IMG/VR virus record: IMGVR_UViG_3300031673_009861
Span: 1-21,605 of that record
From: a virus
Direction: 5' to 3' (one strand)
Length of the DNA: 21,605 bases
In this document: positions 656 through 21,187 of the stretch, one piece after another
Layout: the number at the start of each line of letters is the position of its first letter
Numbering within the stretch: position 1 is the first letter of the stretch
The notes under the pieces: model-generated
Databases searched by the model: none
The model's input: the letters and a program-made list of their open reading frames with translations, nothing else
Told to the model about the DNA's origin: nothing
Program-made: the position numbers and the translations under genes

Positions 656-2317
656 TTAATATTTAATTATATCGTTTTCTTTGGTAGCGACTAAATCATA
701 AATATTATCCCACTTAATTTGAATCTCTATGGATACATTGGTGTCAGCGCTAATTACAATTGACCTACTATCAGCAGCATATCCTCTGTAAGTTGTATTA
801 AGCGTGTACGTTCCCTCTTCGAGGTCGTTGAACTCAAAGTACCCAACTGAATCAGTAGGCATTGTTACGAAGCTTGCATTAGGATATATAAGTTGCATTG
901 TAGCTCCAGTTACAGTTGAGCCAGAAACCGTACCACTAAGGCTGTATTCAGTAAGCGGACTCTCTGAGTCAAGAGAAGGTGGGCTTTGAAGTCCTGCAAT
1001 CTCAGAAGTCCAAGGGCTATCACTCTCAGTTCTAACAAATGTCTTCATTGGCTCAGCCTGAGTACAAATTGTTTTGTTGTCTGAAAATGTAACAACACTC
1101 TGTTTAACATCAAACAAGTTCTTCAGCACTTTAACATTACCAACTCTGTATAATAAACATTTGTTTGTCTTAAGTGATAGTTGATATTTTCTAATTGTCT
1201 TGTCTGTAGAGAATTCGGAGGTGCTATCTTTTGTTTTGCTCATAGCAACCTCTTTGTATTCATCCATCTTAGGGACTATGTATGTAAATACAGTTCCAGT
1301 AAATCCTGTGTCCCCAGTGTTGTAATTAACTTGAACCAGGTATTCATCAGCACCTTCACCATTTGTCCAGAATATCTCTGGAGTAAATGTTTCAATTTGA
1401 CCTTCTGGTGTAGGGTACTCAAGTATTGGCTTATCAGGAACTTCGAAGAATGAAAAATAATCTCCAGTTTTAAAATTAAGACCTTCAAAAGCTCCTTTGT
1501 CAATTGTTGCTCCAGAACTTTCTGTTACAGCAGTGATAGGATTAACATAAGTACTTGCAGAGACTATTCCATCTTCATTAATTATCTCGTAGTTAGTTAG
1601 ACCAGCGGTGACATCGACTTCAAATATGAAGTTGGTATCAATTATGTACTGGTCTCTATCTTTGAATAACTCAGTCTTATATTGTCCAAGATTTTTTGTA
1701 AACTGTTCAATTTGAAGGTCATATATATTTGTGGCTATATCCGTTGTATTTGCGGTTATAGAAAATATAGGAGTATCGAGTTGAGCTTGAATATCTGCAA
1801 CCGTTGGGAGAGTGACTAATTTATCTTCCCTTCCTTGTGATTCTTCAGAGGTTTTTCTTTTTGACTTAAGAACATTACTATCTGCGCTTATTGTTCTTGT
1901 AATTGTTTTTTTACTTGTTTGACCAGTTACCTCATCTACTTCTTCTATTGTTTCAGTGATTACGTCCTCTGTTTGAATTGCTTCGTTTGAATAAGCCCTT
2001 AATCCACTTTGAACTGTGTTATATAAATCCCATGTTACACGATATACATCGTGTTGCAATCTCACAGTTGGTCCGAAACTCGAAGTATTTGCACTGAAGT
2101 CAAATCTAATAAAAGGTTTTACAAGATTCGTAAATATAGAACGAGGGTCTTGCATATAATAATCCTTTGTGCCTCCAACAGTTGTGTATTGAGGAACGTC
2201 AAAAACAGAAGGTACAGTAACTCCATCCTTTGTAAGAAAGAATATATTCTGATAGAAACTTTGGGCTACATTAGTGCTATTTCCAGTTGTTTCTTGTATG
2301 GATTTCTTTACTATCAT
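656..2317 (-). CDS. Tail/baseplate-type structural protein with FnIII-like and carboxypeptidase-regulatory-like domains (553 aa)
   Basis: The N-terminal half (about 1-290) is not recognisable to me. Residues about 296-345 have the spacing of a fibronectin-III/Ig-like strand set (PILEYPTPEG, then PEIFWTNGEGADEYLVQVNY). Residues about 457-533 read LSGTVSGSTVTGATMQL, then SVGYFEFNDLEEGTYTL and SIVISADTNVSIEI. This is the layout of the carboxypeptidase regulatory-like fold that is common in Bacteroidota surface proteins. No signal peptide is seen, which fits a virion protein made in the cytoplasm. The gene starts 1 nt after the stop of the 816-aa gene, so the two are probably translationally coupled. 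It shares the peptides GDTGFTG (336-342) and TAVTES (262-267) with that neighbour. A tail or baseplate decoration role is inferred from context; no specific T4 equivalent is assigned. Confidence 0.65.
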   Translation of the reverse strand: MIVKKSIQETTGNSTNVAQSFYQNIFFLTKDGVTVPSVFDVPQYTTVGGTKDYYMQDPRSIFTNLVKPFIRFDFSANTSSFGPTVRLQHDVYRVTWDLYNTVQSGLRAYSNEAIQTEDVITETIEEVDEVTGQTSKKTITRTISADSNVLKSKRKTSEESQGREDKLVTLPTVADIQAQLDTPIFSITANTTDIATNIYDLQIEQFTKNLGQYKTELFKDRDQYIIDTNFIFEVDVTAGLTNYEIINEDGIVSASTYVNPITAVTESSGATIDKGAFEGLNFKTGDYFSFFEVPDKPILEYPTPEGQIETFTPEIFWTNGEGADEYLVQVNYNTGDTGFTGTVFTYIVPKMDEYKEVAMSKTKDSTSEFSTDKTIRKYQLSLKTNKCLLYRVGNVKVLKNLFDVKQSVVTFSDNKTICTQAEPMKTFVRTESDSPWTSEIAGLQSPPSLDSESPLTEYSLSGTVSGSTVTGATMQLIYPNASFVTMPTDSVGYFEFNDLEEGTYTLNTTYRGYAADSRSIVISADTNVSIEIQIKWDNIYDLVATKENDIIKY

Positions 2318-2318
2318 G

Positions 2319-4769
2319 TTATGGTACTATTGTAGTTTGAGACACGCTTGGTTGAATTTCTCCATAAATTTCGTGACCCCTGATTTCAGATACAAACCTG
2401 TTTTGGTTAACGGTTCCGCTTATAGAGAATGCGCTAATTCTTTTTCCTATACCTTGAGATACAGTACCAACTATTATTACAGGAGTTTGACTGCCGCCTA
2501 AAAAATCATTTATTGCAGGAGTGATTTTAGTAGGCGTAAGAGGTGGTCTCAAATCTGGAGGAAGAGCATTTTGAAATTCTGACCCATCATTAATACCTTC
2601 TTTATACACAAACCTCTGTCTATGGAACACAGTATTCCTATATGTAGTACCCTGACATTCAAGAATTGTTGTAGCAGGCAATAATTGCATCAAATAATCT
2701 TGAAAATTGACCTCCATCAAATCCAAAAAGGCTTCAAGTTTCTTGATTGTCAATTGGTTTGATTTAGGGTCTGCCATTAAATAGTAGTTCATATATATCT
2801 TCTTAAGCTCAGGATATGAGAAAGAAGTGTGAACTTGTGAGTTCGTTTTTCTATTTCGTGGTTCTACATTTGACTTGTAGATAAAATCTATATATTTAGT
2901 CAATGTCATCCCAGATATTTCTGCAGGATTAATAAACTCACAATTACCTACAGCATATTCAAAAGGTGTTGTATTTGAACTAAATGGAGGCGCAGCGCTT
3001 CCCCATACCCAACAAGTACCGCTTTGCTGATACCAACCTTTTACATCACATTCAATTGCTGCTGCTGGACTAAGTGTAGCGCAAAGTTCTTTTGTATTCA
3101 TTACATTCTCACTACCAGTGAATCCTGTGTCTCCAACTTGAACTTTTATGTTGTCATTTCTTTTTATAGGCGAGAACTCAGGTTCCCATTGGTTAATGTA
3201 CTTTTGTCCAGTACCTCTTCCTTCACCGCCTTCTTGAAATATAAGTTTACTCCATGAATAGTTTGGAAAACCTCTTGGATTTACTTTTGTAAAAGATATT
3301 CCAGTCTCTAATTGAATGGCGAGTTCTGGGTCTGGAATTTCTGTAGACATCGTTTGTTGTACATCGTACACAAACTCATTAAACACCACAAGGCATTCTG
3401 GGGCTCCCATTAATTTAAACAAAAACTGAAGCGCATCTCTCGTTCCTTTTTTCTTATAAAGCCAGTTGATGTTAATCAAAATCCTTTTCCAAATCTCTAC
3501 ATTGTAGTATGCAAAAGAATTTTGTTCAGGATTCTCCTCAGAAGCCAGGTATTCAAAAAGGTCAATTTCACTAAATGAACTTGACAGCTTCCATCCAAGA
3601 AGATTACTTAGTTTGACTAAGAATTTTTCTGGAATACTATTTTCATCATTGTAATTAATAGTGTGAGCATAAGCTATATTATCAATAAATTGTTTAATCT
3701 CATCGAACTGTTTTGCATAAGCTGATGTGAATTTTTTATATATCTGAGTATCTGTATCAAATTCAAGATAATTATCTGGCAACATAGTTTTAACCATGAT
3801 GTCAGTTTTATCCATATCAACGTTTCCAGCAAGAAGAAGTAAATCACTCTGATATGATTCAAAATTAGAACCCTTTGTATCTGGATTGAATCCATCAATA
3901 GTTCTTGGCCAAGGTAGTTTGTATGTAAAGTTTTGCTTCTCATCATCAACGTCTGGAATGTCAAACAAAGCTTCATTAAGCATTTGTCTTTCTAATCTTG
4001 ATTGTTGAATTCTATATTCGGTCATCCTTTTTCTGGATGGCCTGATGTATACTGGAAGTTTACTATAAGTTCCACCGCCCTCAAAAGGGGTAACTGCTCC
4101 ATTCGAAAGATGACCATTAATAACGAATTCAAGAACACCATTAGTCCCTCCAGTATAAGAGTATGACTTAATTCCAAAAGATTCAGTTACAGCCGTAGTT
4201 GCTCCACTAAGTTGTATCTCAAATAAATTAGTTTGAGTCATTAGACTTACTCGATTTCCAATTGTAGACCCAGAGTTAAATAAAATAAATCCTTGATTTA
4301 CAATTGTATCTGCTGGAATTTTAAAGGTTGATGTCTTTTCTCCAGTTATTTGGTTAAATGCTTGAGAATAATCATATATTGTGACACCTTCTAAGTTATC
4401 ATAAGCAAGTGCTGCATATGGAAATGTGTCAAGAATGTTGTTTATCGAACGTGCTACCTCTGTATAAAAAGACCCAAAATAAGAATAACTATAAGGGTCT
4501 GATGCAATAGGTCTAAGCTCATTGTTCTGAACTGATGTAGATACCACAGGATTGAAATCTTCAATGCCCATGTTTTCAAGAGTAGAAAAAGGAGTGAAGG
4601 TTACGTTCTTAGCAGTACCAGTTAGTGCATCCGACTCGCTGCTTCTCTCAATCCTAAAATCACCAAACGTAAATATCGACTCAGAATTCGTGTTAGGAAA
4701 CCTAAGGTCTTGGCCTGGTTGGAACGCTGGCGATAGCGAATTATTCGGATTTGAAGGAGTATCTGCCAT
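2319..4769 (-). CDS. Tail/baseplate protein with a P2 gpI-like (Tail_P2_I) core (816 aa)
   Basis: Residues about 328-456 match the pattern of the P2 tail protein I family: an LPDNYLEF opening, a helical stretch with FDEIKQFIDNIAYAH, then PEKFLVKLSNLLGWKL, WKRILININWLYKKKGTRDA and LFKLMGAP. The KKGTRDAL phrase is the family's RGTraGL-like signature. In P2-like tails this protein belongs to the baseplate, so a baseplate role is likely. About 330 residues precede the core and about 360 follow it, so the protein is far longer than the family's usual size of roughly 180-200 residues. The C-terminal part has cysteines at about 563, 574, 587 and 610 and a GDTGFTG peptide at 546-552. It is the first gene of a minus-strand operon. 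The start is ATG 4769, with a TATTTATT box 13 nt upstream. Confidence 0.65.
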   Translation of the reverse strand: MADTPSNPNNSLSPAFQPGQDLRFPNTNSESIFTFGDFRIERSSESDALTGTAKNVTFTPFSTLENMGIEDFNPVVSTSVQNNELRPIASDPYSYSYFGSFYTEVARSINNILDTFPYAALAYDNLEGVTIYDYSQAFNQITGEKTSTFKIPADTIVNQGFILFNSGSTIGNRVSLMTQTNLFEIQLSGATTAVTESFGIKSYSYTGGTNGVLEFVINGHLSNGAVTPFEGGGTYSKLPVYIRPSRKRMTEYRIQQSRLERQMLNEALFDIPDVDDEKQNFTYKLPWPRTIDGFNPDTKGSNFESYQSDLLLLAGNVDMDKTDIMVKTMLPDNYLEFDTDTQIYKKFTSAYAKQFDEIKQFIDNIAYAHTINYNDENSIPEKFLVKLSNLLGWKLSSSFSEIDLFEYLASEENPEQNSFAYYNVEIWKRILININWLYKKKGTRDALQFLFKLMGAPECLVVFNEFVYDVQQTMSTEIPDPELAIQLETGISFTKVNPRGFPNYSWSKLIFQEGGEGRGTGQKYINQWEPEFSPIKRNDNIKVQVGDTGFTGSENVMNTKELCATLSPAAAIECDVKGWYQQSGTCWVWGSAAPPFSSNTTPFEYAVGNCEFINPAEISGMTLTKYIDFIYKSNVEPRNRKTNSQVHTSFSYPELKKIYMNYYLMADPKSNQLTIKKLEAFLDLMEVNFQDYLMQLLPATTILECQGTTYRNTVFHRQRFVYKEGINDGSEFQNALPPDLRPPLTPTKITPAINDFLGGSQTPVIIVGTVSQGIGKRISAFSISGTVNQNRFVSEIRGHEIYGEIQPSVSQTTIVP

Positions 4770-4777
4770 GTAGTTGT

Positions 4778-4790
4778 TTTCTAATAAATA
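4778..4790 (-). promoter_or_regulatory. Candidate late-type promoter box for the minus-strand tail operon
   Basis: The minus strand reads TATTTATTAGAAA from 4790 down to 4778. The 8-mer TATTTATT (4790-4783) ends 13 nt before ATG 4769, the same spacing as at 642-649. Function is inferred from recurrence. Confidence 0.45.
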
Positions 4791-4819
4791 TTAGCGAAAA
4801 AGATTCCTAATGTCAATGC

Positions 4820-4874
4820 AAAATTTATTTTTATTGAAAACTATTTATATTAGGACAAATATTAAATAAATTTT
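4820..4874. repeat. 11-bp perfect inverted repeat in the divergent intergenic region
   Basis: AAAATTTATTT at 4820-4830 is matched by its exact reverse complement AAATAAATTTT at 4864-4874, with a 33-bp spacer. The centre of symmetry (4847) falls inside an extra TATTTATA (4842-4849). The region lies between two divergent structural operons, so an operator is possible. The arms are pure A+T, so chance is also possible. Confidence 0.4.
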
Positions 4875-4881
4875 ATCATTC

Positions 4882-4894
4882 TATTTATAGAAAA
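4882..4894 (+). promoter_or_regulatory. Candidate late-type promoter box before the 676-aa structural gene
   Basis: TATTTATAGAAAA, with the 8-mer at 4882-4889, ends 17 nt before ATG 4907. A second TATTTATA 40 bp upstream (4842-4849) lacks the AAA extension. No Shine-Dalgarno sequence is present in the leader. Confidence 0.45.
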
Positions 4895-4906
4895 AAACAC
4901 GCTGAA

Positions 4907-6937
4907 ATGAGTTACTTACCAAACGAGCCCACAACTTTTATAAACATAAAACTTACCGATGATGGTAGAAAACTATTGTCGTTAGGACAGCTTACTTTTA
5001 ATAAAGCGCTCCTTTCTGATAGAGAGATAAATTATGGAATTGATAGAACTGGTGCATATGATATAGGATGTAAAAATAGAATTATAGCACCCAAAGATGC
5101 TGCGCCTACTTTTGCAAACCCTTTTAATTTTGATAACAGCCCAGCTGTTGCAATCACAGTTGGCTCTGCAACTCAAGTTATTACAGCAGCAACCGAATCT
5201 ACTGGATTTTACACTGGAAGTACTGGAGCTTGGGGATATGATTCTGATGAAATATTAGGGTCTAATACAATAGATTATTCTTCATACACTCCAGATGGTA
5301 CAAATACAATTACTGTAGCTGGTGGTGGAACTGGATACTTTCCAACAGGAGGAGAGTTAATGTATATCCCTTGGGAGACAATTCCAAACAGCGCTGTTGT
5401 TTATGATTCGTCAACTGCAATTCTTTCAGCTAATCCTACAAATAAATTGTGGTACAGAGTTCTTTCTGCTGACACAGGAGCAACAACTGTAACTCTTGAT
5501 AGAGCGGTTCCAGATTTTGGAGCACCATCAACATCTCAGGTAATCAATTCTTATTTTTACCCATTCAATGGTATTGAAACTTATTACGGCTCTGCCGCAA
5601 CTGTTAATACCCAGGTTTGGAATATGAATATTGTTAGAACAAGTTCTGTAGAAGGAACTGATGCTTCTATTAGTGGGTATACCACATACGGTTCAATAGA
5701 ATATAATGGAACCAAACAATATCTTGGTTTCGAAGATGAGACAAGACAATTTGGAATCATCCATTATTCAAACGAATTTACTGGCAATACATATGCTGAA
5801 CAACTTGTTGAAAAGAGTGTTGAGGTGGATATGCCAGATGTTATGTGGCACAAGCATGCTGCCATTGCTGGACAAGGAACTTCTTATGGGCTTAAATTAT
5901 ATGATGTAGCAGGCGCTACTACTTTTGATGCTATTTCTCAAACAAGCTATAGATACCTAAGAGATGGGGTCACTACTTCAAGTTCAATTGTTGGTAGAGT
6001 TTATCACAAACTTAAAATGATTGTAATTACTGACCCAGAATTATTAACAGCTCTTACTTATAAGTCAAATAGAAATTATACACTACCTAACTTAAATGTA
6101 GATACATCATCGGTTCCTTTGGCTCCACTTGATACTTCTACATCTACAGGTTTGCTTAAAAGTGGATACACATATTTTGTAACTTACATAACAGAAAGTG
6201 ATTCCACCTATGCGAGTGGAACATCTTATGGATACCCTCAAACTTTGCCTTGCCAATACATTCAAAGAATTGACGGAGAAGAAGATTCATTTGGAAACCC
6301 TCAATATCTTAGAGCTTTCTACAACACTTCTTACTTCCCTTATCTTAGAACGTCTGCAGGTATGACTTCATACTCAGGAACTGGGTGGAATGCAAACAAA
6401 GTTCAACTACTTGTTAATGAAGTTAATTTAACTACAAGTCCAGATGTTAATTTTGACACAATACCAACCGATGGATGGAAATTGGTTTCTTCTGGAACTT
6501 CTGGAAACGGTATTTACACAGGAGCTACTGGTACCAGCACAATTTACCCTTCAGACCTTGCAGGTTTTCAATTCATAGTTTCGAGAGAAGACTTTGATAG
6601 CGGAACAACATATGTCTTGGATTCAACCTTCCATGACAATAATGATGCTACTATATCTGGAATGACTTTTGGAAATGAATCATTTTTCTTTGGAAACATA
6701 AAAGCAACTATAAGAGCAACAAGTTACAAATCTGTAATGACAGTTCTTGCTCCAGATACATTATTTAACACTTCAGTCAATTCAAGTTTTGATGGATTAT
6801 TAGACACAAACACTTACATAACAGAAGTTGGAATATTAAACAACGATGATGTCCTTGTTGCGGTAGGTAAACCTACATACCCAATCAAGAAAAGTTCAGC
6901 GAGATATTTAGCATTCCAACTGGAGATAGATTTTTAA
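4907..6937 (+). CDS. Large tail/fibre-type structural protein with paired terminal modules (676 aa)
   Basis: Residues 8-45 (TTFINIKLTDDGRKLL, then LLSDREINYGID) form an N-terminal module of the LT-x-x-GR-x-L, then F-x-LSD-x-x-NY type. A similar module opens the next gene. The last 40 residues (TEVGILNNDDVLVAVGKP, ending AFQLEID) match the end of the 382-aa gene and resemble tail-fibre/collar proteins that carry TEIGLYD-type phrases. The middle is a long Ser/Thr/Gly/Tyr-rich beta-type region with TESTGFYTGSTGAWG at about residues 96-110. No transmembrane or signal segment is seen. It is the first gene of a plus-strand structural block, divergent from the tail operon. Tail-fibre, collar or baseplate-periphery placement is inferred; I cannot name an exact homologue. 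Confidence 0.65.
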   Translation: MSYLPNEPTTFINIKLTDDGRKLLSLGQLTFNKALLSDREINYGIDRTGAYDIGCKNRIIAPKDAAPTFANPFNFDNSPAVAITVGSATQVITAATESTGFYTGSTGAWGYDSDEILGSNTIDYSSYTPDGTNTITVAGGGTGYFPTGGELMYIPWETIPNSAVVYDSSTAILSANPTNKLWYRVLSADTGATTVTLDRAVPDFGAPSTSQVINSYFYPFNGIETYYGSAATVNTQVWNMNIVRTSSVEGTDASISGYTTYGSIEYNGTKQYLGFEDETRQFGIIHYSNEFTGNTYAEQLVEKSVEVDMPDVMWHKHAAIAGQGTSYGLKLYDVAGATTFDAISQTSYRYLRDGVTTSSSIVGRVYHKLKMIVITDPELLTALTYKSNRNYTLPNLNVDTSSVPLAPLDTSTSTGLLKSGYTYFVTYITESDSTYASGTSYGYPQTLPCQYIQRIDGEEDSFGNPQYLRAFYNTSYFPYLRTSAGMTSYSGTGWNANKVQLLVNEVNLTTSPDVNFDTIPTDGWKLVSSGTSGNGIYTGATGTSTIYPSDLAGFQFIVSREDFDSGTTYVLDSTFHDNNDATISGMTFGNESFFFGNIKATIRATSYKSVMTVLAPDTLFNTSVNSSFDGLLDTNTYITEVGILNNDDVLVAVGKPTYPIKKSSARYLAFQLEIDF

Positions 6938-6956
6938 GGGTTTTTTTAAATTAACA

Positions 6957-6969
6957 TATTTATAATAAA
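6957..6969 (+). promoter_or_regulatory. Candidate late-type promoter box before the 146-aa gene
   Basis: TATTTATAATAAA, with the 8-mer at 6957-6964, ends 15 nt before ATG 6980. It shares the upstream letters ACA with the box before the gene at 21252. Confidence 0.4.
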
Positions 6970-6979
6970 ATAAAAAGAA

Positions 6980-7420
6980 ATGGGATATATACCTTCAGCA
7001 GATACAGTTTACGCAGTCGCTTACCTAACAGAGACAGGTAGGGCATACTTGTTCGATGATAATGGGAGTAGGTTTGACGTAAATGGTGATGATTTATTTG
7101 AAATCACTAAATTTACTCTTTCTGATACAGATACAAATTATCAAACAATTTTAAATCTATCAACAGGCGAGGTTCCAGATGTTACTGGTAAGTCTGAAGG
7201 GTGTTTAAAAACAACTGCAAACTACGTTCAAACAAATTTGCTCGCTTTTGTTTTTGATGATACACCTACAAACGTTGAGTACTCGACAGATTTAGATGGA
7301 GATATACTTCTTATTAAAGAAGGTGATTTACCTAATAAATCAGCTGGAGAGAACCCGCCAGCTCCGATTTTAGTACTTGGAGAAGGCCCTTTTACATTTA
7401 ATCCAGGAGGAATAAACTAA
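6980..7420 (+). CDS. Small structural protein with the shared N-terminal LT-x-x-GR module (146 aa)
   Basis: Residues about 10-55 (VYAVAYLTETGRAYLF, then FEITKFTLSDTDTNYQTI) line up with the N-terminus of the 676-aa neighbour: LT, GR, a short loop, then F-x-LSD followed by NY. The remainder (about 60-146) is unrecognised and ends in a Pro/Gly-rich tail (ENPPAPILVLGEGPFTFNPG). It lies 42 nt after the 676-aa gene and 17 nt before the next gene, in an all-plus structural block. It looks like the attachment module of the larger protein occurring on its own, so a role at the same site on the tail is plausible. The alignment was made by eye. Confidence 0.6.
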   Translation: MGYIPSADTVYAVAYLTETGRAYLFDDNGSRFDVNGDDLFEITKFTLSDTDTNYQTILNLSTGEVPDVTGKSEGCLKTTANYVQTNLLAFVFDDTPTNVEYSTDLDGDILLIKEGDLPNKSAGENPPAPILVLGEGPFTFNPGGIN

Positions 7421-7437
7421 TTATAAAAATTTAAAAA

Positions 7438-7986
7438 ATGGCAACAGCAAATCAAAACCCAGAAAATATAGGATTTCCAATGGCTCAAGTAGTTAATTTT
7501 ACAACTACTAACCTAAGTAATGGAGACCCATTTGTTGAACCTCATACAGTATCGGGACCATCTGGTTCTTTTAATGTGCCAGTTTCTGCAATTAATATTG
7601 GAAACAATAAAATTGTTATCCCTTTAACTTCTAATACTTCAACAGGAGCAAACTTCTTAAAACTTCACTTGCCACAACCTAACTCAAGTACTTTTTATGT
7701 AACTTTTTGTGTTAAAAATAGAGCAATGCAAGATGGATATTATGACTATACTACTGGTATTCCTTCGGACTATAGAACAGACCTTAGAACATTTACACGA
7801 GATGGTAGTGGGTTAATTCCTTCAGGAGGAGCTACATATGTAAAAACATTGGTATTCCAAGTTATTGGATTAGACACAAACGTAACATCTGCAGCAGTTC
7901 AATATATGGTTAAATTTTCAGCTGTATTTGCAGGAGCTGGAACAGGAGGAAGTTTTCCTGGCGTAGCAGGAAGCTTCCTGGCGTAG
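7438..7986 (+). CDS. Probable structural protein of unknown function (182 aa)
   Basis: I do not recognise this protein. It is rich in Ser, Thr, Asn, Gly and beta-branched residues, has no signal peptide or membrane span, and sits among structural genes with short spacing (17 nt before, 37 nt after). Residues about 40-75 (SGSFNVPVSAINIGNNKIVI) and 120-170 look like alternating beta strands, which fits a virion component. The last 15 residues (GGSFPGVAGSFLA end) are coded by an imperfect tandem duplication of about 20 bp at 7948-7986. The stop codon lies in the second copy, in a shifted frame, so the C-terminus may have been changed recently. The start is ATG 7438 after an A-rich leader without a Shine-Dalgarno site. 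Confidence 0.55.
   Translation: MATANQNPENIGFPMAQVVNFTTTNLSNGDPFVEPHTVSGPSGSFNVPVSAINIGNNKIVIPLTSNTSTGANFLKLHLPQPNSSTFYVTFCVKNRAMQDGYYDYTTGIPSDYRTDLRTFTRDGSGLIPSGGATYVKTLVFQVIGLDTNVTSAAVQYMVKFSAVFAGAGTGGSFPGVAGSFLA
7948..7986 (+). repeat. Short imperfect tandem duplication at the 3' end of the 182-aa gene
   Basis: GGAAGTTTTCCTGGCGTAG (7948-7966, 19 bp) is followed after 2 bp by GGAAGCTTCCTGGCGTAG (7969-7986, 18 bp). The unit differs by one base deletion and one substitution. In copy 1 GTA-G is read as Val-Ala; in copy 2 the same GCGTAG is read as Ala then stop. A further partial unit, GGAAGTTC, begins at 7985. Confidence 0.75.
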
Positions 7987-8023
7987 GAAGTTCGAATTCT
8001 TAAAACATTAAAAATTAAAAACA

Positions 8024-9172
8024 ATGGCAAATATTCCATATAAACCGATAACAAGCATAATCTCTACAAGACAAGAGACTTCTACGTTTAAAACAATACC
8101 AGGTGGTGTAGATAGTGCTCCGTATAGCGCTCTTACTTATACGTTATGTGGTAGAAATGACGAAACATCAAATGGAGGTCCAAATTGGTTAACATCAAAA
8201 GAGGCTAATTACTTCATTTCATTTAGAGTGCCTCACGCTGAAGACCAACTTAGTACTGGGTCAACTTTGTCATTACAAAATCCATCACTTCAACAGTTAA
8301 ATGTTGATAAAATTGTTGTATCTCCAATACCAAGAGAGTATTATAATGAAATTATAGATGGTAGAAGTATTACATTTACTGTCCCTCAATTAAGTGGGTC
8401 CACAGACATGTCTGGAATGACGGTTAACTCTTCTACTTATAGTCAACTTACTAAGTTTCAAGACTCAGTGCTTCTTGGTAACAACATAGCTTTCTTATTT
8501 GCAGATGATATTAACTTACCAAGAGTTGGTACAACTGGGGGTGGAAATACTTCTTTCTTTCCAAGAACAACTTGGAACGTGACTCCTTTTATAAACAAGC
8601 CAATGGCTCATTCTTATTCAGACCTTCAGTCTTCTGATATTAATACAGATACAAGACCTTGGTCTGGAGTTAACCTTGCAGTACAAGTTGAAGAAAAATA
8701 TCCAACAAGTACAAACCAAGGTTATAACTATGATATTCCTGTTGGATTTGTAGCTCTTGACAAAGGGTTTATGGTACTTACTCATCCTGATATTGTAGAC
8801 AATATTCCATGGGGACAAGGTTATGACCTTTATACAAATGCAGCAAATACACTTTCTGGTACAACGGATGTTTATTTTACAAACACAGCAGCGTCTCAAG
8901 TTATGTTCAATGATATTGACATTAACTTTAGAACATCTGTAGTTTGTCTTGCGCTTCCAGCTGAGTTTACATTTTCTACAAACCCATCTTGGAACCTTGA
9001 ATACAACCTTCAAGAACTTAATAATGGAACTAACGGTTTCGACCCTGTTCAAGTAACTGAAATAGGTCTTTACAATAAAAACAGTGAACTTATTGCTGTA
9101 GCAAAGATAGATAGACCAATTGAGAAAACTTACACAAACTTGATAACCTTCAATTTAGATATTGATGTTTAA
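8024..9172 (+). CDS. Tail/fibre-type structural protein sharing its C-terminal module with the 676-aa protein (382 aa)
   Basis: The last 38 residues (VTEIGLYNKNSELIAVAKID, ending ITFNLDID) match the end of the 676-aa protein position by position: TE-x-G-[IL], a two-residue turn, L-[VI]-AV, P-I-x-K, then F-x-L-[ED]-ID. A second shared stretch is FMVLTHPDI at about residue 250, compared with MIVITDPEL in the larger protein. TEIGLY phrases are typical of tail-collar/fibre N-terminal domains in P2-type phages; here the phrase is C-terminal. The rest is beta-rich with many aromatic, Asn and Thr residues. It is the last gene of the structural block and is followed 19 nt later by a strong terminator. 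The specific position in the virion is not known. Confidence 0.62.
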   Translation: MANIPYKPITSIISTRQETSTFKTIPGGVDSAPYSALTYTLCGRNDETSNGGPNWLTSKEANYFISFRVPHAEDQLSTGSTLSLQNPSLQQLNVDKIVVSPIPREYYNEIIDGRSITFTVPQLSGSTDMSGMTVNSSTYSQLTKFQDSVLLGNNIAFLFADDINLPRVGTTGGGNTSFFPRTTWNVTPFINKPMAHSYSDLQSSDINTDTRPWSGVNLAVQVEEKYPTSTNQGYNYDIPVGFVALDKGFMVLTHPDIVDNIPWGQGYDLYTNAANTLSGTTDVYFTNTAASQVMFNDIDINFRTSVVCLALPAEFTFSTNPSWNLEYNLQELNNGTNGFDPVQVTEIGLYNKNSELIAVAKIDRPIEKTYTNLITFNLDIDV

Positions 9173-9244: not shown

Positions 9245-9793
9245 ATGATTCTTGCATTAGATGTATCAACAAGTTGTATCGGCTACGCTCTATTTAATGA
9301 GACTGGCGAAGAACTTATGGAATTGAACTACGTAAAGTTCGGAGCTAAACTAACCTTATTTGAAAAACTGAAGGAATTCAAAAAACAATTAAAATTTCTT
9401 GAAGGCAAAGATATACAGTATATTGTTATCGAGGAACCTTTGAAAAAGTTTGCAGGAAAATTCTCCAGTGCGAGTACAATTTCTATTCTTAATTTCTTCA
9501 ATGGAATGATTAGCGCATCTGTTTATGAAACATTTGGAGTGGAACCAATTCACTACAACGTAAACACTGCAAGAAAAACTGCATTCCCAGACTATAAAGC
9601 AAAACAGAAAAGTAATGAGAACAAGCATCAAGTGTGGACTCTTGTTCGTGACCTTGAGCCTCACATTGTTTGGAAATACGGGACACGTAGTCATAAGTTA
9701 TCTGTAGAGAATTATGACATGGCAGACGCATATACCATAGGAATATGCCACATCAACATCATGAATGAACAAAAGAAGATGAAAGATGAGTAA
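9245..9793 (+). CDS. RuvC-like Holliday-junction resolvase (182 aa)
   Basis: This is an RNase H-fold nuclease of the RuvC type, expected to cut four-way junctions during phage recombination and before packaging. The first strand is MILALDVSTSCIGYALF with catalytic D6. The second acidic site is IVIEEP (E63/E64). The C-terminal helix is NYDMADAYTIG with D158 and D161, the usual D-x-x-D spacing. Length fits the family (roughly 160-190 aa). T4 uses the unrelated gp49 endonuclease VII for this step, so a RuvC-type enzyme fills that place here. The gene lies between the structural terminator and the primase promoter, so it is probably transcribed alone. The start at ATG 9245 puts D6 exactly where expected. 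Confidence 0.85.
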   Translation: MILALDVSTSCIGYALFNETGEELMELNYVKFGAKLTLFEKLKEFKKQLKFLEGKDIQYIVIEEPLKKFAGKFSSASTISILNFFNGMISASVYETFGVEPIHYNVNTARKTAFPDYKAKQKSNENKHQVWTLVRDLEPHIVWKYGTRSHKLSVENYDMADAYTIGICHINIMNEQKKMKDE

Positions 9794-9891: not shown

Positions 9892-10905
9892 ATGGATGGC
9901 AATAATGATTACGCAATAGTTCAGATACTTAAAAATTTTTTAGGTAATCCAAAAGACGAGAATAATGCTTTGAGCAAGAAGCAGTGGCAGTTTAATTGCC
10001 CAGGTCCTACATGTCGTCATGATGTCGATAAATTCAACCTCGAATACAACTCTGATAAAAAAGCCTTTAAGTGCTGGAAGTGCGAGCCAAGATATGCTGG
10101 TTATGTCCACAAGCTTGTGGATGACTACGGCTCTCAAGAAGATTACAGAAAGCTTAATGTAGTTTTCCCAAAAGAGAATATAAAAACTCTCCAAAATCAG
10201 AATAACAAAAAGATAAAAGTTGACCATGAACTAATTACTTGTGAGCTACCAAAAGGTTATTTACCTCTTGGACAAAAGAGAAGTTCAAGACTTTATCAAC
10301 TTGCTTGGGATTATCTTACTGGAAACGGTAAAGGACAGAGAGCGGTTCCAGAATCATTCATTGATAAATATGAAATAGGCTACACTGAAAATGGTCCAAG
10401 AAAATTTAGAATAATAATCCCTTCTAAAAACAAGTTCGGAAAATTCAATTACTATGAGGCCAGGTCATTTATTCCAGGCCCAAAAGAAATACCTTATATT
10501 AAACCATCTGGAGAAGAGGTTCACAAGAACGACATCATCTTTAATGAGTATTTCATAAACTGGGATTTGCCAGTTTTTCTTGTAGAGGGTGTGTTTGATA
10601 TGTTTCGAATACCCAACTCAATTCCAATACTTGGGAAAGAAATTTCAGAATTATTGACTAATGAATTGTTGAAGCGTAAGTGTACAGTTATTTTATGTCT
10701 CGACCCTGATGCAATTAAAACAATTGTTGAAATTTATACACTACTTTCCTCTTTAGGTTTGGACGTTTTTTATGTAGATTTAACAGTGTACAACAAAGAT
10801 ATTTCTAAGATATACGAAGACCACGGAAGAGAAGAGGTAGCAAAAGCCTTGAGTCAACTTAAGCGTCTTGATTTGTCAATAGAAGTGCAAAAGAAATTAA
10901 AATAA
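9892..10905 (+). CDS. DnaG/T4 gp61-like DNA primase (337 aa)
   Basis: The N-terminal zinc-binding domain has C36-x4-C41 (NCPGPTC), H43, and C61-x2-C64 (KCWKC). The Toprim catalytic core has the conserved Glu in FLVEGVFDMF (E232, with D236) and the metal-binding pair in LCLDPDA (D271, D273), followed by KDISKIYEDHG, which resembles the DnaG region after Toprim. Such enzymes make RNA primers for lagging-strand synthesis together with a replicative helicase; no helicase partner is in this window. At 337 aa it is much shorter than bacterial DnaG (about 600 aa) and close to T4 gp61, so it lacks a large C-terminal helicase-binding domain. No other in-frame ATG exists before the zinc finger, which fixes the start at 9892. 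The SbcD-SbcC gene follows after 10 nt. Confidence 0.85.
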   Translation: MDGNNDYAIVQILKNFLGNPKDENNALSKKQWQFNCPGPTCRHDVDKFNLEYNSDKKAFKCWKCEPRYAGYVHKLVDDYGSQEDYRKLNVVFPKENIKTLQNQNNKKIKVDHELITCELPKGYLPLGQKRSSRLYQLAWDYLTGNGKGQRAVPESFIDKYEIGYTENGPRKFRIIIPSKNKFGKFNYYEARSFIPGPKEIPYIKPSGEEVHKNDIIFNEYFINWDLPVFLVEGVFDMFRIPNSIPILGKEISELLTNELLKRKCTVILCLDPDAIKTIVEIYTLLSSLGLDVFYVDLTVYNKDISKIYEDHGREEVAKALSQLKRLDLSIEVQKKLK

Positions 10906-10915
10906 TTACTACAGA

Positions 10916-13900
10916 ATGAAGATAGCTCACTTAGCAGATATACAGATTAGATTTGGAACAAGACATGAAGAATACAGAAGTGTATTTGAAAGATTGAACG
11001 AAGACCTTGAGAAGCAAAAGCCAGATAGAATTTATGTAGCAGGCGACCTTGTGCATCAGAAGATTAATATGTCTCCTGGTTCGTTTAACTTGCTTGCGGA
11101 GTTCTTGCTTAACCTTTCTAAGATTGCTCCTACGGATGTTATTCTTGGTAATCATGACCTTAATCTGCAGCAGTTGGAGCAGGGAGATGCTATATCTCCA
11201 ATTTTTCACCTTGCCAACATGATTGAAGAAGGTGATAACAAGAAAGCTTATGTTGTAAGTGAAGAAAACAAAGACTCAATAGATTACAATCAAAAAGCTG
11301 TCTACTATTTTCCTGATTCAGGTTTTTACAACATTGGAGAAGAACTTGTTTATGGAATATATTCTTGTAAGGATAATGAAATTCTAAGTTTAGAAAAAAA
11401 GGAGCCTGGAAAGAAATACGTTGCAATGTATCACGGTACCGTATACGGCTCAAGAGGTGACAATGGATATGAAATGCATGGAGATAATCTAATGCGTCTC
11501 AGCACCTTTAATAACTTTGACATGGTAATGCTTGGAGACATCCATGAATATCAAACATTTAGAGAAGATGAAACTGTTGCTTATGCGGGTTCTCTGATTC
11601 AACAAAACTTTGGAGAGTCAATTGATAAAGGATACCTCATGTGGAATACAGACACTTGCGAGCATGAGAGAAAGTTCATAATGAATGACTACGGTTTTGC
11701 TAAGGTTGACATTTCGAGGGGAGAAGATTTTGAAGAGAGAATTGAATTTATAAAATTCAGCAATAACAAAAGGAAAACAAAGGTTTACATCACTTGGGAA
11801 GATTATGAAGAAAACTATTCCATTGAAAAAGAGAACCAAATCAAGAGACTTGTAAAAGATAAGTACAAATGTGAAAGCGTAAGGGTTGAATTCAAGGAGA
11901 TAAGAAGGGATATTGCAAACATTGGCGAAGAAGAAGATTTTGATTACTTCAGTTTTGAAGACATGTTTGAAGAGTGGGTTGTTGAATCTGAGGCAGATGT
12001 AGACAAAGACCTTATGAAAGAGCTTTTGGATTTCTCCAGAGAAGTCGATACCACTCTTGAGATTGATGAAACTCAACTCAATTTAATTGATGATTGGGAT
12101 TTAAACAAAATAGAGATAAGCAACGTTCTGTCTTTTGATAAGAAACCTCTTGTAATCGACTTTGACCAAATTAGAGGTCTTACAGGTATTTTCGGAAAAA
12201 ACTTTAATGGTAAGTCGAATGTAATAAAAGCTATTGTCTGGGGCCTTTATAAGGAGATTATAGGAGGTAACCAAAGTAGCGCTAAGTATCTTGTAAACAT
12301 ATACACAGATTCTAACACTGGATATGTTAAGCTTTTCTTGACCATAAACGGAGAAAGTTATAGAATACATAGGCAAATCACTAATAGTGGTGGTAAAAAT
12401 ACTTTTAAGACAAAATATGAAAAATTAGTCAAAGAGTATGATGACGATGGTGTTGTTACTGGGGAAAGTTGGACTGATAAAATATCTGATAGAAAAACTG
12501 CAGAGCAAAAAGAAGTTCAACAACTCGTTAAAGATGCGATTGGTACTTATGAGGATTTCACTAAGACATCACTTCAAGCTCAAGGTGGTGCTGGAGACTA
12601 TATTAGTCAGCAGCAACAACCTAAGAATAATTTAATCAGTAGATTCTTCGGACTGGAAACTTATAAGATTAGACATGACTATGCTAAAGATTTCTTTAAC
12701 GATGTCAAGAGGAAGCAGAAAGACCTTGGGAACGCTATTGAGATAGAGGATAAAATAAAAGACATTGATGGCGAGATTAGTGATAAAAATAAAGAACTCG
12801 ACTCCTTCAATGAAGAGAAGAGTATATTTGAAGTTAAGTACAGCGATGTGAGTGACGACATTCTTGAGCTTACAAAAAAGTTAGAGAAAGTAGAGGACCC
12901 TGGAATAAAGAGCACAGAAGATTCTGAGCGTGAAATCGTATATCTTGAAAATGCAGTAAAAGCAAATGAAGAAATCGTCACGATGACAGAAGAGTGGTTG
13001 GCGAGTAATTTCAAAAAAGAACTTCCCTTTAAAGAGGGAGAAACTGTAGATAGCTTACAGATAAAGTTGAATACAGAAAATTCTACAATAAAATCTGCAG
13101 AAACCACTCTTGATACTATGAAGAAGTGGGCCAAAGAGAATCCTGAGAAAAAAGAGATTGATATTGATGGGTATGCTGAATCTATTAGTGACCTAAAAGA
13201 AAAAATCACCACATTAAAAAGCAAGCTACCCACCTATCAAGGGAAGAGTTGTCCTACGTGTGGTAATGTTGAACAAAAGGCTGACCCAGATAAAGAAGAA
13301 ATTTGTCTTGAAGACATCAAGATTAATCAAGAACTTATTGTTCACAAGGAAAAGAAAGTAAAAGATGCTGAAGAAGTTGTTTCTCATAATAATAAAGTAG
13401 CGACAACAAAAGAGAGAATAACATTGGCCGAACAATCAATTTCAGTTAAAAAAGATTCTGCAAAACTGATTCAAGACAAAATAGACTTAATCAATAACTC
13501 GAAAGATATTGTTGAGCATAACGATAAAGTGGAGAGTCAGACAAAAATCCTTAAAAGTAAAAAATCTCTAATTGAGAATGACAAAGAAAAGATTAAAGCG
13601 CTTAATGATAAGATAGCCAAATTTGAAGCTAACAAGGATAAAATCAAAAATAACGAGAAGACTCAAGACAAAATTGATTCTAAAGTTGAATTGAACAAGA
13701 CCTACAAATTAGCTATATTCAATTTAGACAAGAGTATTAATAAAGCTTTTGGAGAAGTTAAGGTGTTGGAGAATAATAAAGAAAACTTCGGAGATAAACT
13801 TAAGGACATTAAAAACTCTGAGAAGTTATTTAAGAAATACTCCATCTACCTTCAAGCGGTTCACAGAGATGGGATACCAGCTTCTATAATTAGAAAAAAG

Positions 13901-14362
13901 TTGCCAATTATTAATGGTAAGATTAACTCTATTCTACAAGAGGTCGTAGACTTCAAAATAGAGCTTGAGATTCTTGCTAACGGAGATATTGTGGAAACTT
14001 TCTTCTTTAGTGAAGATAAGTGTGATTCTCTTCCTCTTGCTTCTGCGTCTGGAAGTCAAAAGTTTATTGCGTCAATTGTAATAACTGAAGCTTTGAGGCA
14101 TATGAGCAGGCTTACAAAGCCGTCTGTCAGAATCATTGACGAAGGGTTTGGAACGCTTGATGACGAGCTTACAATCGGAATTGTTAATATTTTGAATTAT
14201 TTACGTAATAAGTACAAAAATGTACTGATTATTACTCATAGAAACGAGATTAAGGATTTTGCGGATAGCATAATTGAAGTTGTTAAAATACCAGGCAACT
14301 TGAGTCAAGAAGTCCTTGACAACAATCCTAAAGCTGGAGTTTCTGAAGTTACTATAACATAA
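10916..14362 (+). CDS. Single-chain SbcD-SbcC (Mre11-Rad50, T4 gp47-gp46) fusion nuclease/ATPase (1148 aa)
   Basis: Residues 1 to about 330 are a Mre11/SbcD-type metallophosphoesterase: LADIQ (D8, Q10), AGDL (D44), LGNHD (N79-H80-D81), MYHG (H173) and LGDIHE (D208, H210). Residues about 393-600 are the SbcC/Rad50 N-lobe with Walker A GIFGKNFNGKS (424-434). Long charged coiled coils flank a zinc hook CPTC at 779-782. The C-lobe has the signature-like SASGSQK (1043-1049), Walker B VRIIDEGFGTLDD (D1075, E1076) and the H-loop THR (H1108). The complex processes DNA ends for recombination and recombination-dependent replication. T4 and bacteria encode the two subunits separately; here both lie in one uninterrupted frame, joined by an acidic linker at about 331-392. 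Motif I has Gln where His is usual. It is cotranscribed after the primase and overlaps the next start (TAATG). Confidence 0.9.
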   Translation: MKIAHLADIQIRFGTRHEEYRSVFERLNEDLEKQKPDRIYVAGDLVHQKINMSPGSFNLLAEFLLNLSKIAPTDVILGNHDLNLQQLEQGDAISPIFHLANMIEEGDNKKAYVVSEENKDSIDYNQKAVYYFPDSGFYNIGEELVYGIYSCKDNEILSLEKKEPGKKYVAMYHGTVYGSRGDNGYEMHGDNLMRLSTFNNFDMVMLGDIHEYQTFREDETVAYAGSLIQQNFGESIDKGYLMWNTDTCEHERKFIMNDYGFAKVDISRGEDFEERIEFIKFSNNKRKTKVYITWEDYEENYSIEKENQIKRLVKDKYKCESVRVEFKEIRRDIANIGEEEDFDYFSFEDMFEEWVVESEADVDKDLMKELLDFSREVDTTLEIDETQLNLIDDWDLNKIEISNVLSFDKKPLVIDFDQIRGLTGIFGKNFNGKSNVIKAIVWGLYKEIIGGNQSSAKYLVNIYTDSNTGYVKLFLTINGESYRIHRQITNSGGKNTFKTKYEKLVKEYDDDGVVTGESWTDKISDRKTAEQKEVQQLVKDAIGTYEDFTKTSLQAQGGAGDYISQQQQPKNNLISRFFGLETYKIRHDYAKDFFNDVKRKQKDLGNAIEIEDKIKDIDGEISDKNKELDSFNEEKSIFEVKYSDVSDDILELTKKLEKVEDPGIKSTEDSEREIVYLENAVKANEEIVTMTEEWLASNFKKELPFKEGETVDSLQIKLNTENSTIKSAETTLDTMKKWAKENPEKKEIDIDGYAESISDLKEKITTLKSKLPTYQGKSCPTCGNVEQKADPDKEEICLEDIKINQELIVHKEKKVKDAEEVVSHNNKVATTKERITLAEQSISVKKDSAKLIQDKIDLINNSKDIVEHNDKVESQTKILKSKKSLIENDKEKIKALNDKIAKFEANKDKIKNNEKTQDKIDSKVELNKTYKLAIFNLDKSINKAFGEVKVLENNKENFGDKLKDIKNSEKLFKKYSIYLQAVHRDGIPASIIRKKLPIINGKINSILQEVVDFKIELEILANGDIVETFFFSEDKCDSLPLASASGSQKFIASIVITEALRHMSRLTKPSVRIIDEGFGTLDDELTIGIVNILNYLRNKYKNVLIITHRNEIKDFADSIIEVVKIPGNLSQEVLDNNPKAGVSEVTIT

Positions 14363-16038: not shown

Positions 16039-16087
16039 TTTTCAATAAAATCTTCTAAATTTTTGATTTTTAGATGTTTTTTTCTTC

Positions 16088-16100
16088 TATTTAGTAAAAC
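16088..16100 (+). promoter_or_regulatory. Weak late-type box before the nuclease gene
   Basis: TATTTAGTAAAAC (8-mer at 16088-16095) ends 18 nt before ATG 16114 and matches the recurrent TATTTATW box at all but one core position. The divergent 16039-16113 region holds no clearer promoter that I can see. Confidence 0.25.
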
Positions 16101-16113
16101 CCGCTATAAAAAA

Positions 16114-17016
16114 ATGAATAAAGATTCAAACTATACAGCGCTTAATACTAAATATGCTAATAAAATTCATATTAGCTTTAGTGAGTTCAATCTGTTTAAC
16201 CAATGTGGACATAGGCATCTGGTTGAAAAGCATCTGAAGTTAACAGAGCAAGTGATGACTGTACATTTGTTTTTCGGTAACGCCATACATGCTGCGCTTG
16301 AAAAAACTTTAAAAGAAGCAGTTGGTCTAAAGAGGAGGGTTGATTTTTTTAAGAGAACTTTTACAAAAGACATGCTTGACCACATGAAGGATGAGCCAGG
16401 ATTTCAGCAGGAACTTAAAGAGTTTTTGCAACAAAGAGAAGATTTGCTAAATGTTTTATCAGTTGAAGACATCTTTAAGAAATACAAAATAGTCTCAGTT
16501 GAAGAACCTTTGTTTGAGCATGTATACGGAGAGTTCTACTTCAAAGGGTTTATAGACCTTGTGGTTCAAGATAGAGACACTGGTAGGTACGTTATAATCG
16601 ACTGGAAGACATCTGGGCAGAAATGGAACATTAAAAAGAAAATGACTGATGAAGCTTTTCTTGCTCAAATGAGATTTTACAAATACTTCTGGGCAAGAAA
16701 GAATGAAATCAATCTTGATGACATAGGTTGTGAGTATATTGTTCTGAATAGACTTAAGAACAAAAAGAAGCCTGAATCTGGAACTGGAGGAGTTCAGTAC
16801 GTAGAAGTAGATTCAACCAAAGATGAAATTTACGAATCTCTTGAAAAACTGGCAGAAACAGTTGAGAGCATTCATATTAATAAAAAGTTTCCAAAAATAA
16901 AGCATACAGGAAACGAATTTCTGGGATGTATGTTTTGCAAATTCAAAGGCGGGAGACACCCTCTTTGTAATAATAACAAAAATCAAGACACACAATTACT
17001 GTCTGAAAACAAATAA
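16114..17016 (+). CDS. RecB/Cas4-like PD-(D/E)XK nuclease with probable Fe-S cysteines (300 aa)
   Basis: Motifs in order: FGNAIHAALE with H59, FKGFIDLVV with D148, VIIDWKTS with D163 and K165, and AQMRFYKYFWA with Q185 and Y189. This is the H, GxxD, DxK, QxxxY order of the RecB/AddB/Cas4 exonuclease group. One N-terminal cysteine (C31, in NQCGHRH) and a C-terminal C272-x2-C275-x9-C285 give the four-cysteine layout that holds a 4Fe-4S cluster in AddB and Cas4. It probably trims or resects DNA ends in phage recombination or host DNA breakdown. No Cas1, Cas2 or CRISPR repeats are present, so a CRISPR role is not indicated. I start it at ATG 16114; the frame extends 17 codons upstream to a TTG, but those residues are hydrophobic and unlike the family. 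The next gene begins 12 nt later. Confidence 0.8.
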   Translation: MNKDSNYTALNTKYANKIHISFSEFNLFNQCGHRHLVEKHLKLTEQVMTVHLFFGNAIHAALEKTLKEAVGLKRRVDFFKRTFTKDMLDHMKDEPGFQQELKEFLQQREDLLNVLSVEDIFKKYKIVSVEEPLFEHVYGEFYFKGFIDLVVQDRDTGRYVIIDWKTSGQKWNIKKKMTDEAFLAQMRFYKYFWARKNEINLDDIGCEYIVLNRLKNKKKPESGTGGVQYVEVDSTKDEIYESLEKLAETVESIHINKKFPKIKHTGNEFLGCMFCKFKGGRHPLCNNNKNQDTQLLSENK

Positions 17017-19255: not shown

Positions 19256-21187
19256 ATGGCAAAAAAGAAAGAAATAACCCCAGTCAGAATTAGAAAGCTG
19301 AGAACAAATTATGAACTTAGGTATGATTACCTCAAGGTTCTTACCACGTACATCAAAACGCTTCCTAAAGAACATAGAGAGATTAGGGTTGATAATGTTT
19401 TGGATGTTAATGGCGGCACCAGAGATGAGTGGGTGAGAATCATTAGAGAAGTGCAAATGGGGAATATTATTTCTTTTTTGGTGGATAACTCTATTCCATT
19501 TACATTTGAGAACCTTACTGAAGGTGAGTTGAATCATCTTAGGAAAGAATATGTTGATAGGCAGACAAGGATTTCCGATGCACTTCGCCTAAAAGAAGCG
19601 TCTCTTGTTTTTAATGACGAGGACTTCAATCACATGAAGATTCCTCCATATGACTATCAAAAACAAGCTGTAAAGTTTTTTGAGGTAAATAATGGTAAAG
19701 CAATTTTAGGTGACCAACCTGGAGTTGGTAAAACATTGCCACCAATAACATATGCATCAAAGCATAAGTTAAAAACTTTGGTTATTTGCCCAGCATCCCT
19801 TAAGTTAAACTGGAGGAAAGAGGTTTTAAATTTTAGCAATGAAAAAGCTCATGTGTATAAATACAAACCAACAAAGAGTAGTCTTAATGTTAATCATGGA
19901 AAAGATGAAAGTCTATTCCACATTATAAACTATGAATCAATTCAAAGTTATATTAAACTGGAGTATGTTCACAAGTGTCAGGGCAACGTCATTGTTCCTG
20001 GAAAAGGAACACAAAAGTGTGGTTGTGAAATAACCGACCTTACAAAGAAACACAAGAAGTGTGAAGATTGCAAAAACTCTAACTCATTCAAGACGAGAAT
20101 AAAAGGAGTTGTCTTCATTCAAGATAAAGACGGTTCTATTCTTGACCCAGATGATTATGACATGGTTGTAATTGATGAGTTTCACAGAATAAAGTCTGTC
20201 AAGACGGATTGGACCCAAATCATAAAGAGGGCGTTTAGAGATACTGTCGATAAGAAGATTCTTATATCTGGAACAGCGATTAAATCAAGACCTATGGAGT
20301 TTTTCTCTGGGCTTAATTTTATGGACCCAGAAATGTGGAACTCCTCTCATGATTTTGGAGTAAGATACTGCGCAGCCTATGAAGGTAATTTTGGATGGGA
20401 CTACAGCGGTGCATCCAATCTCGAAGAGCTATTTACCAGAATTTCTCCATACTTCCTCAGAAGGCTTAAAAAAGACGTTCTTTCTCAATTGCCTCCTAAG
20501 ACATATACTGAGATTGAAATAGAACTTACGCCAACCCAAAGGAAAGAATATAATAAGCTCGTCAAGGAAATGAAGCTTGTTGTAAACGCTGATGGCACAG
20601 AGGAAGAGAAAGAAGAAGGTTTTCTTGAGAAAATTCACAAGTTAAAACAATTCACTGGAATGGTTAAGCTTGAGAAGATGATTCAAGATGGCGTGGTTAC
20701 AGACATTACAAGTAATGATGAAAAACTTGTTGTAATGTCAGATTATCAAATCTTGGCAGAAACGCTCTACAAAGAATATAAGCACTCAGCGGTACTTCAC
20801 ACTGGAAGCATGAGCATGGAAGACAAGCAGGATTCTGTGGATAAATTCCAAGAGAACAAGAAGATTAATCTGTTTGCAGGCATGATTGGAGCGTCTGGTG
20901 TAGGAATTACTCTTACAGAAGCTTCTAAACTTATATTTATTGGATTCGCATGGACTCCTGGAGATATGGAGCAAGCAGAAGATAGAATTCACAGAGCCAC
21001 AACTGAACATGACAACATTCAAATTATCCAATACATCTGCGTAGACACTATTGATGAAGACATTAATGAGCTATTGAAAGAGAAGTCTCAAGTAGTAAGC
21101 AAAGTTCTTGACAATAAAGACTACAGCAAGAGTGTTAGTGTGGCTGACCAGAGCATAATCAAAAGTTTGATTAATAGATTGAAATAA
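19256..21187 (+). CDS. SNF2-family DNA helicase/translocase with a cysteine-rich insertion (643 aa)
   Basis: Superfamily 2 motifs in order: the Q-like PYDYQKQAVKFF (131-142), Walker A DQPGVGKT (153-160), motif Ia LVICPASLKLNW, motif II VIDEFHRIKS (DEFH 307-310), motif III LISGT (336-340), motif V GASGVGITLTEAS (545-557) and motif VI QAEDRIHR (573-580). The QAEDRIHR phrase and the motif order point to the SNF2/SMARCAL1-like branch, which anneals or remodels branched DNA; T4 UvsW is a functional parallel but not necessarily an orthologue. Between Ia and II an insertion at about 239-275 has C241, C255, C257, C269 and C272, probably a zinc site. The first 120 residues are unassigned. The start at ATG 19256 is the only early ATG. 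Confidence 0.85.
   Translation: MAKKKEITPVRIRKLRTNYELRYDYLKVLTTYIKTLPKEHREIRVDNVLDVNGGTRDEWVRIIREVQMGNIISFLVDNSIPFTFENLTEGELNHLRKEYVDRQTRISDALRLKEASLVFNDEDFNHMKIPPYDYQKQAVKFFEVNNGKAILGDQPGVGKTLPPITYASKHKLKTLVICPASLKLNWRKEVLNFSNEKAHVYKYKPTKSSLNVNHGKDESLFHIINYESIQSYIKLEYVHKCQGNVIVPGKGTQKCGCEITDLTKKHKKCEDCKNSNSFKTRIKGVVFIQDKDGSILDPDDYDMVVIDEFHRIKSVKTDWTQIIKRAFRDTVDKKILISGTAIKSRPMEFFSGLNFMDPEMWNSSHDFGVRYCAAYEGNFGWDYSGASNLEELFTRISPYFLRRLKKDVLSQLPPKTYTEIEIELTPTQRKEYNKLVKEMKLVVNADGTEEEKEEGFLEKIHKLKQFTGMVKLEKMIQDGVVTDITSNDEKLVVMSDYQILAETLYKEYKHSAVLHTGSMSMEDKQDSVDKFQENKKINLFAGMIGASGVGITLTEASKLIFIGFAWTPGDMEQAEDRIHRATTEHDNIQIIQYICVDTIDEDINELLKEKSQVVSKVLDNKDYSKSVSVADQSIIKSLINRLK

Follow-up and report, generated by a model that had tools for sequence, protein, structure and literature searches.

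Our results identify the gene at 10916-14362 of the window, which is the whole 21.6 kb virus record analysed here, as a single-chain Mre11-Rad50 (SbcDC) of a tailed phage, most probably working as an M2R2-type end-processing nuclease (probability about 0.9). One open frame runs from the ATG at 10916 to the stop at 14362 and encodes 1148 amino acids, in which an SbcD/Mre11 phosphoesterase with its capping domain is followed by a full SbcC/Rad50 (Table 1). Both the uninterrupted frame and the single-chain nature of the protein had been claimed in an earlier note on this DNA, and they are borne out by translation, by the domain matches and their order, and by fused homologues. The fusion as such is not novel, since Mre11/Rad50 fusions were already described in Mimivirus (R555), Bacillus phage 0305phi8-36, plasmids (Deferribacter, C. 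kluyveri), moss and several eukaryotes; their abundance in viral metagenomes from aquatic habitats and a probable phage origin were noted as well (Yoshida et al., 2011; PMC3175470). The window protein is a further member of this common, known aquatic phage family. What is new, and the most interesting result of this work, is that some relatives have the gene divided again next to its active site, a state that the window itself does not display.

The assignment of the two halves is consistent across databases, as Pfam, PHROGs and NCBIfam agree in placing SbcD/Mre11 at residues 1-212 and SbcC/Rad50 from about 398 to 1132. Matches over the Pfam cut-off are Metallophos (PF00149) at residues 1-212 (E 1e-11) and AAA_23 at 398-628 (E 7e-9), and SbcC_Walker_B at 1042-1092 is sub-threshold (E 0.009). 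In addition, PHROG 100 (SbcD) matches residues 1-372 (E 2e-22) and PHROG 77 (SbcC) residues 160-1132 (E 3e-43). The phosphoesterase motifs, Walker A, the CPTC hook, the signature and Walker B all lie where the earlier note had located them. D8, D44, N79-H80-D81, H173, D208-x-H210, the Walker motifs, the signature and the hook vary little or not at all among 65-68 aligned fused homologues (19-76% identity), which excludes chance as an explanation for the motif set. In the Rad50 half, a bipartite ABC head (Walker A, signature and Walker B) flanks an antiparallel coiled coil with a CxxC zinc hook at its apex (CPTC 779-782). A longer coiled coil is found in locus L100 (5341-9411), whose fused protein of 1356 aa has some 200 residues more than its relatives between the two lobes of the ATPase.

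The Mre11 metal-ligand motifs (D-x-H, GD, GNHD, H and H-x-H) are all present, with two substitutions that are conserved in the window's clade and give D-x-Q at 8-10 and D-x-H at 208-210. Throughout this clade Gln occupies position 10, where both the canonical motif and fused homologues at greater distance carry His. All fused homologues examined have Asp at position 208, the counterpart of His206 in Mre11 of P. furiosus. Gln10 and Asp208 could change metal binding or the mode of nuclease action.

Table 1. Features of the fused gene and of its neighbourhood in the window
Feature	Position	Strand	Basis
RuvC-like Holliday junction resolvase, upstream, same replication/recombination block	9245..9793	+	PHROG 159, 827
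DnaG-like primase, immediately upstream of fused gene	9892..10905	+	PHROG 47
Fused SbcD-SbcC (Mre11-Rad50) gene, 1148 aa	10916..14362	+	Frame, domain matches, fused homologues
Mre11/SbcD phosphoesterase domain, residues 1-212	10916..11551	+	PF00149, residue invariance
Phosphoesterase residues D8, Q10 (canonical His), D44, N79, H80, H173, D208, H210	within 10916..11551	+	
Codons 215-216, split point of relatives, intact in window	11558..11563	+	
Mre11 capping domain, about residues 239-330	11630..11905	+	Model; colinear with 3qg5_C
Acidic disordered stretch, residues 332-343	11909..11944	+	pLDDT < 50
Mre11 Rad50-binding helix-loop-helix, helices 347-357 and 364-381	11954..12058	+	Alignments, model
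Inter-subunit tether proper, residues 382-392	12059..12091	+	Model, conservation
Rad50/SbcC ATPase N-lobe, residues 393-580	12092..12655	+	Pfam AAA_23, profile, model
Walker A GKNFNGKS, residues 427-434	12194-12217	+	
Coiled coil, about residues 581-982	12656..13861	+	Model, conservation
Zinc-hook CPTC, residues 779-782	13250-13261	+	Both cysteines invariant
Rad50/SbcC ATPase C-lobe	13862..14359	+	Motifs, conservation, model
Signature SASGSQK, residues 1043-1049	14042-14062	+	
Walker B, residues 1071-1076 (IIDE about 1073-1076)	14126-14143	+	
PD-(D/E)XK (RecB/Cas4-like) exonuclease	16063..17016	+	PF12705, PHROG 69
SNF2-type helicase	19256..21187	+	PF00176, PHROG 62

The contig is metagenome-derived, and a merging of two genes by assembly or sequencing error would also give a single frame. 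Such an artefact is practically negligible as an explanation, however, given that at least 116 distinct phage proteins, counted after removal of duplicates among the 51 IMG/VR relatives found with one alignment query and the best 80 of more than 400 for each of two short queries, are fused at the same place and with the same linker length. These proteins carry the nuclease and both ATPase lobes in a single frame, are 19-97% identical to the window protein and span 943-1356 residues (before de-duplication); the fused form is their usual state, and they include Microcystis phage Mel-JY01, Tenacibaculum phages and a 735 kb uncultured phage. In the isolate Mel-JY01 the fusion is annotated as one CDS. 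Moreover, neither a stop nor a frameshift was found in any full-length homologue in the stretch equivalent to 11900-12150, where the earlier note had suggested that one might have been missed. Loci with a partial fused gene are mostly interrupted by contig ends. L006 (ambiguous bases and a stop near codon 618), L207 (overlapping frames near residue 834) and L052 (5935-9475; a single-base frameshift near residue 235, close to the split point described below, though without insert or tails) were set aside as probable sequence errors and not counted as splits. Beyond the viruses, the genomes of 84,980 bacterial and archaeal species were scanned for close relatives only, which gave one piece of the gene, on a 3.9 kb MAG contig that is probably phage; within that scope, the fusion is frequent among aquatic phages but rare in the genomes of cellular organisms.

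A different reading concerns the join between the two halves, which had been proposed to be an acidic linker of about 60 residues (331-392) replacing the Rad50-binding helices of Mre11. The segment is strongly acidic (23 D/E against 4 K/R), and its total length of 62-69 aa is kept down to 20% identity. Nevertheless, a new interaction module in this place is very improbable, as the segment itself contains the predicted helices 347-357 and 364-381 (pLDDT 85-88), with a conserved hydrophobic pattern in both, and aligns with Mre11 of T. maritima. In this regard, phmmer aligns the window protein up to residue 372 with T. maritima Mre11 up to residue 372, and a profile of 68 fused homologues matches residues 1-376 of the 379 in the T. 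maritima chain (E 6e-24), with Rad50 starting 15 profile positions after the end of this match; the same profile matches Rad50/SbcC structures with E down to 4e-43. The model came from AlphaFold with 65 homologues in the alignment (pLDDT 82), and its pTM of 0.49 leaves the mutual placement of the domains unsure; an earlier run with 6 close homologues (pLDDT 50, pTM 0.26) was discarded. Searched with Foldseek, the model matches MR complexes and, among viral models, homologues of comparable length from giant viruses and Tenacibaculum phages. Taken together, the T. maritima alignments, the modelled helices and the conserved hydrophobic positions argue that the helix-loop-helix of Mre11, which is in contact with Rad50 at the base of its coil (PMC7260605), is retained in the fused chain. 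With residues 332-343 predicted to be disordered and the first Rad50 strand modelled at 393, the tether proper shrinks to about 11 residues (382-392), in agreement with an estimate of 9-12 residues based on the T. maritima structure (Yoshida et al., 2011; PMC3175470).

All canonical MR domains are present in the chain, and a dimer of this one chain acting like SbcCD or T4 gp46/gp47 is thus the simplest reading of the window gene. From the domain order, the catalytic residues, the helix-loop-helix and their conservation, all of them observed, we infer dimer assembly, biochemical activity and a role in replication. Two fused chains would dimerise into the usual M2R2 head, in which two nuclease/capping modules would be held by their helix-loop-helix to the coiled-coil bases of both ATPase halves, and the CPTC hook would link the coils of the two chains. 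Whether DNA ends or hairpins reach the nuclease would be controlled by ATP binding and hydrolysis. The fusion would merely add an 11-residue tether between subunits that already bind each other, and we accept the earlier proposal that it would also fix a 1:1 stoichiometry. The enzyme may resect ends for recombination-dependent replication or degrade host DNA, the two roles thought to be played by T4 gp46/gp47. A function in replication and recombination fits the genomic setting, with a resolvase and a primase upstream and an exonuclease and an SNF2 helicase downstream. The window is a 21.6 kb fragment, and a second, separate SbcC or SbcD may be encoded elsewhere in the genome. Farther upstream, positions 656-9172 encode large virion-like proteins (553, 816, 676 and 382 aa, plus smaller ones) almost without Pfam or PHROG match, several of which recur at the relatives' loci.

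In seven relatives the gene is split again after residue 215, three of them complete (L008, L009 and L010, one with 96% identity) and four partial or distant. The split point lies directly past the metal-ligand motif G-D208-I-H210-E-Y-Q-T-F and corresponds, in the model, to the loop between strands 203-207 and 221-223. In the three complete cases the frame of the N-fragment stops 25-26 codons beyond residue 215, and the C-fragment, of 941 residues (949 counted stop-to-stop in L010), restarts 535, 2374 and 957 bases downstream in L008, L009 and L010, respectively, as measured between homologous codons. L055 and L056 show the same N-fragment and tail before the contig ends, LR756508 (L065), a 484 kb phage, is broken at the same point, and L117 begins within such a tail, followed by an endonuclease ORF and the C-fragment, its N-fragment being off the contig. 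Homologues of the same lineage in which two adjacent genes are split between the halves had been named beforehand as evidence against a fusion. Two-gene forms do exist in the lineage, but their break falls inside the nuclease domain and not in the linker, and they do not refute the fusion, since the splits look derived from fused ancestors.

Homing-endonuclease genes or their remnants occupy the gap in four of the seven split relatives. The gap of L009 holds an endonuclease ORF that is matched by homing-endonuclease and HNH profiles, those of L065 and L117 hold TnsA-like ORFs related to each other, and L008 keeps a truncated remnant only; no endonuclease was found in the gap of L010. A homing-endonuclease ORF thus lies between intact fragments in L009 and L065, and also in L117 apart from the off-contig N-fragment.

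Other genes were also noticed in and around these insertions. An ORF that matches head maturation proteases over its first ~65 residues (PHROG 207; Peptidase_S77 sub-threshold) lies between the split halves in L009 (5700-6182), L010 (9038-9529) and L008 (8719-9108), and in L008 it is joined by a deletion to the endonuclease ORF remnant. The insertion in L009 also carries, beside the endonuclease ORF, an N6/N4 DNA methyltransferase gene (6437-7048; PF01555) that is open on its 5' side. In L007, a TnsA-like/NUMOD3 homing-endonuclease-like gene (7126-8007) sits just upstream of, and overlaps, an intact fused gene, and its product is 34% identical to the endonuclease inside the split gene of LR756508. 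GIY-YIG/NUMOD3 homing endonuclease genes lie between the structural genes and the RuvC-like gene in L003 (1266-1997) and L006 (3686-4390), and are absent at that place in the window.

The break is accompanied by paired extensions, namely a tail on the N-fragment (EDELExY...GWEI before the stop) and a head on the C-fragment (M..KIRIRR...). At the complete junctions the tails read ...EDELEDYEASGWEILK (stop), VVEEDELEKYLNSGWKL... and IDESEIDKYIAKGWEIVE (stop), and the heads MGKKIRIRRKSPTA, MSDDKYRVKRVWPEA and MAKIKIRKTYPAI. The tails are alike across three phage groups, beating nearly all of 2000 shuffles, and the heads somewhat less so. The tail motif was found neither elsewhere in 5.1 Mb of related sequence nor in intact homologues, no domain family was matched by the tail, and a contiguous tail-head insertion occurs in none of the 116 fused homologues. 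An intron was considered for the split relatives and rejected, as no Rfam match to a group I/II intron core was obtained in L008, L009, L010 or the window, and tail and head behave as coding sequence. Fractured genes with split inteins have reportedly been described by Dassa et al. in 2009; a split intein was likewise rejected here, given the lack of any Pfam intein match at the junction and the shortness of the tail (25-26 aa) and the head (about 14 aa).

The pieces of the split gene are under strong purifying selection, to judge from dN/dS, which is 0.02-0.11 in the two fragments, 0.05 in the head and 0.13 in the tail; with synonymous sites close to saturated, these figures are rough. In a tree that contains phage fusions only, split forms included, the latter are scattered among the fused ones: L009 groups with the window and L002 (96-97% identical), L008 falls just outside, L010 is, at a modest support of 86, the neighbour of the fused L004, and both L065 and L117 are far off. 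In addition, the first 112 bases past the break (the tail plus 37 nt) are the same in L008 and L055, whereas the gene before the break is just 70-92% identical in 90-base windows; this looks like recent transfer of the break.

These findings point toward the idea, which we regard as fairly likely, that homing endonucleases inserted after codon 215 fractured the fused gene in some relatives, and that the two polypeptides reassemble non-covalently through tail and head, the pieces being the nuclease core (1-215) with its tail and the head with the capping domain, linker and Rad50. The gap ORFs, the tails and heads, the dN/dS values, the scattered tree and the L008/L055 identity would be accounted for by a fused ancestor, repeated fracture by homing endonucleases and selection on the pieces. 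A functional precedent exists in NrdA of phage Aeh1, which is split by mobE (PMC2988022). Against it stand the few contigs, several of them partial, the roughness of the dN/dS estimates and the empty gap of L010, as well as tails that resemble those of Aeh1 NrdA no better than shuffles do, save for one marginal pair. Such fracture supplements the single-chain reading of the window gene and is no rival to it, because it concerns a derived state of the gene in relatives. The tails would dock the two fragments. Whether homing endonucleases repeatedly break the fused gene after residue 215, with a docking-peptide pair restoring the nuclease active site in trans and with break and tails spreading by homing, is in our judgement an evenly balanced proposition.

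The window protein is one more well-behaved single-chain MR that could ease structural work on the complex. Its split relatives are natural experiments: an enzyme that is elsewhere a single chain is made there in two pieces, with up to 96% identity between the two forms, and the break lies next to the metal-binding loop and comes with candidate docking peptides of merely 14-26 residues. They make testable how a phage survives when a selfish endonuclease lands in a recombination gene, and whether split proteins can be rejoined by a small, portable peptide pair.

With respect to known systems, the split relatives, and not the window, resemble the nrdA-A / mobE / nrdA-B arrangement of Aeromonas phage Aeh1 in having an endonuclease gene between two intact halves, but the gene and the endonuclease families are others and the tails are dissimilar in sequence. 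Like the published viral and plasmid fusions (PMC3175470), the window carries both domains in one chain, Mre11 before Rad50. It shares with Mimivirus R555 the His in place of the third Asp of GDxxD and the Asp in place of His206, and the helix-loop-helix is kept in both; R555 differs as a giant-virus protein of 1351 aa, whereas the window protein belongs to a tailed phage, has 1148 aa and shows the Gln10 of its clade. Microcystis phage Mel-JY01 (WWT39521), Tenacibaculum phages pT24 and PTm1 and the uncultured huge phage LR756501 encode single-frame proteins with the same order and linker length at 20-26% identity, which are annotated just as AAA protein or metallophosphoesterase, or not at all. 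T4 gp47/gp46 and E. coli SbcD/SbcC have the fold, the catalytic motifs and the hook in common with the window protein but are encoded by two separate genes, and the SbcD and SbcC genes of phages Staphylococcus K and Aeh1 also stand apart, unlike the single gene of the window.
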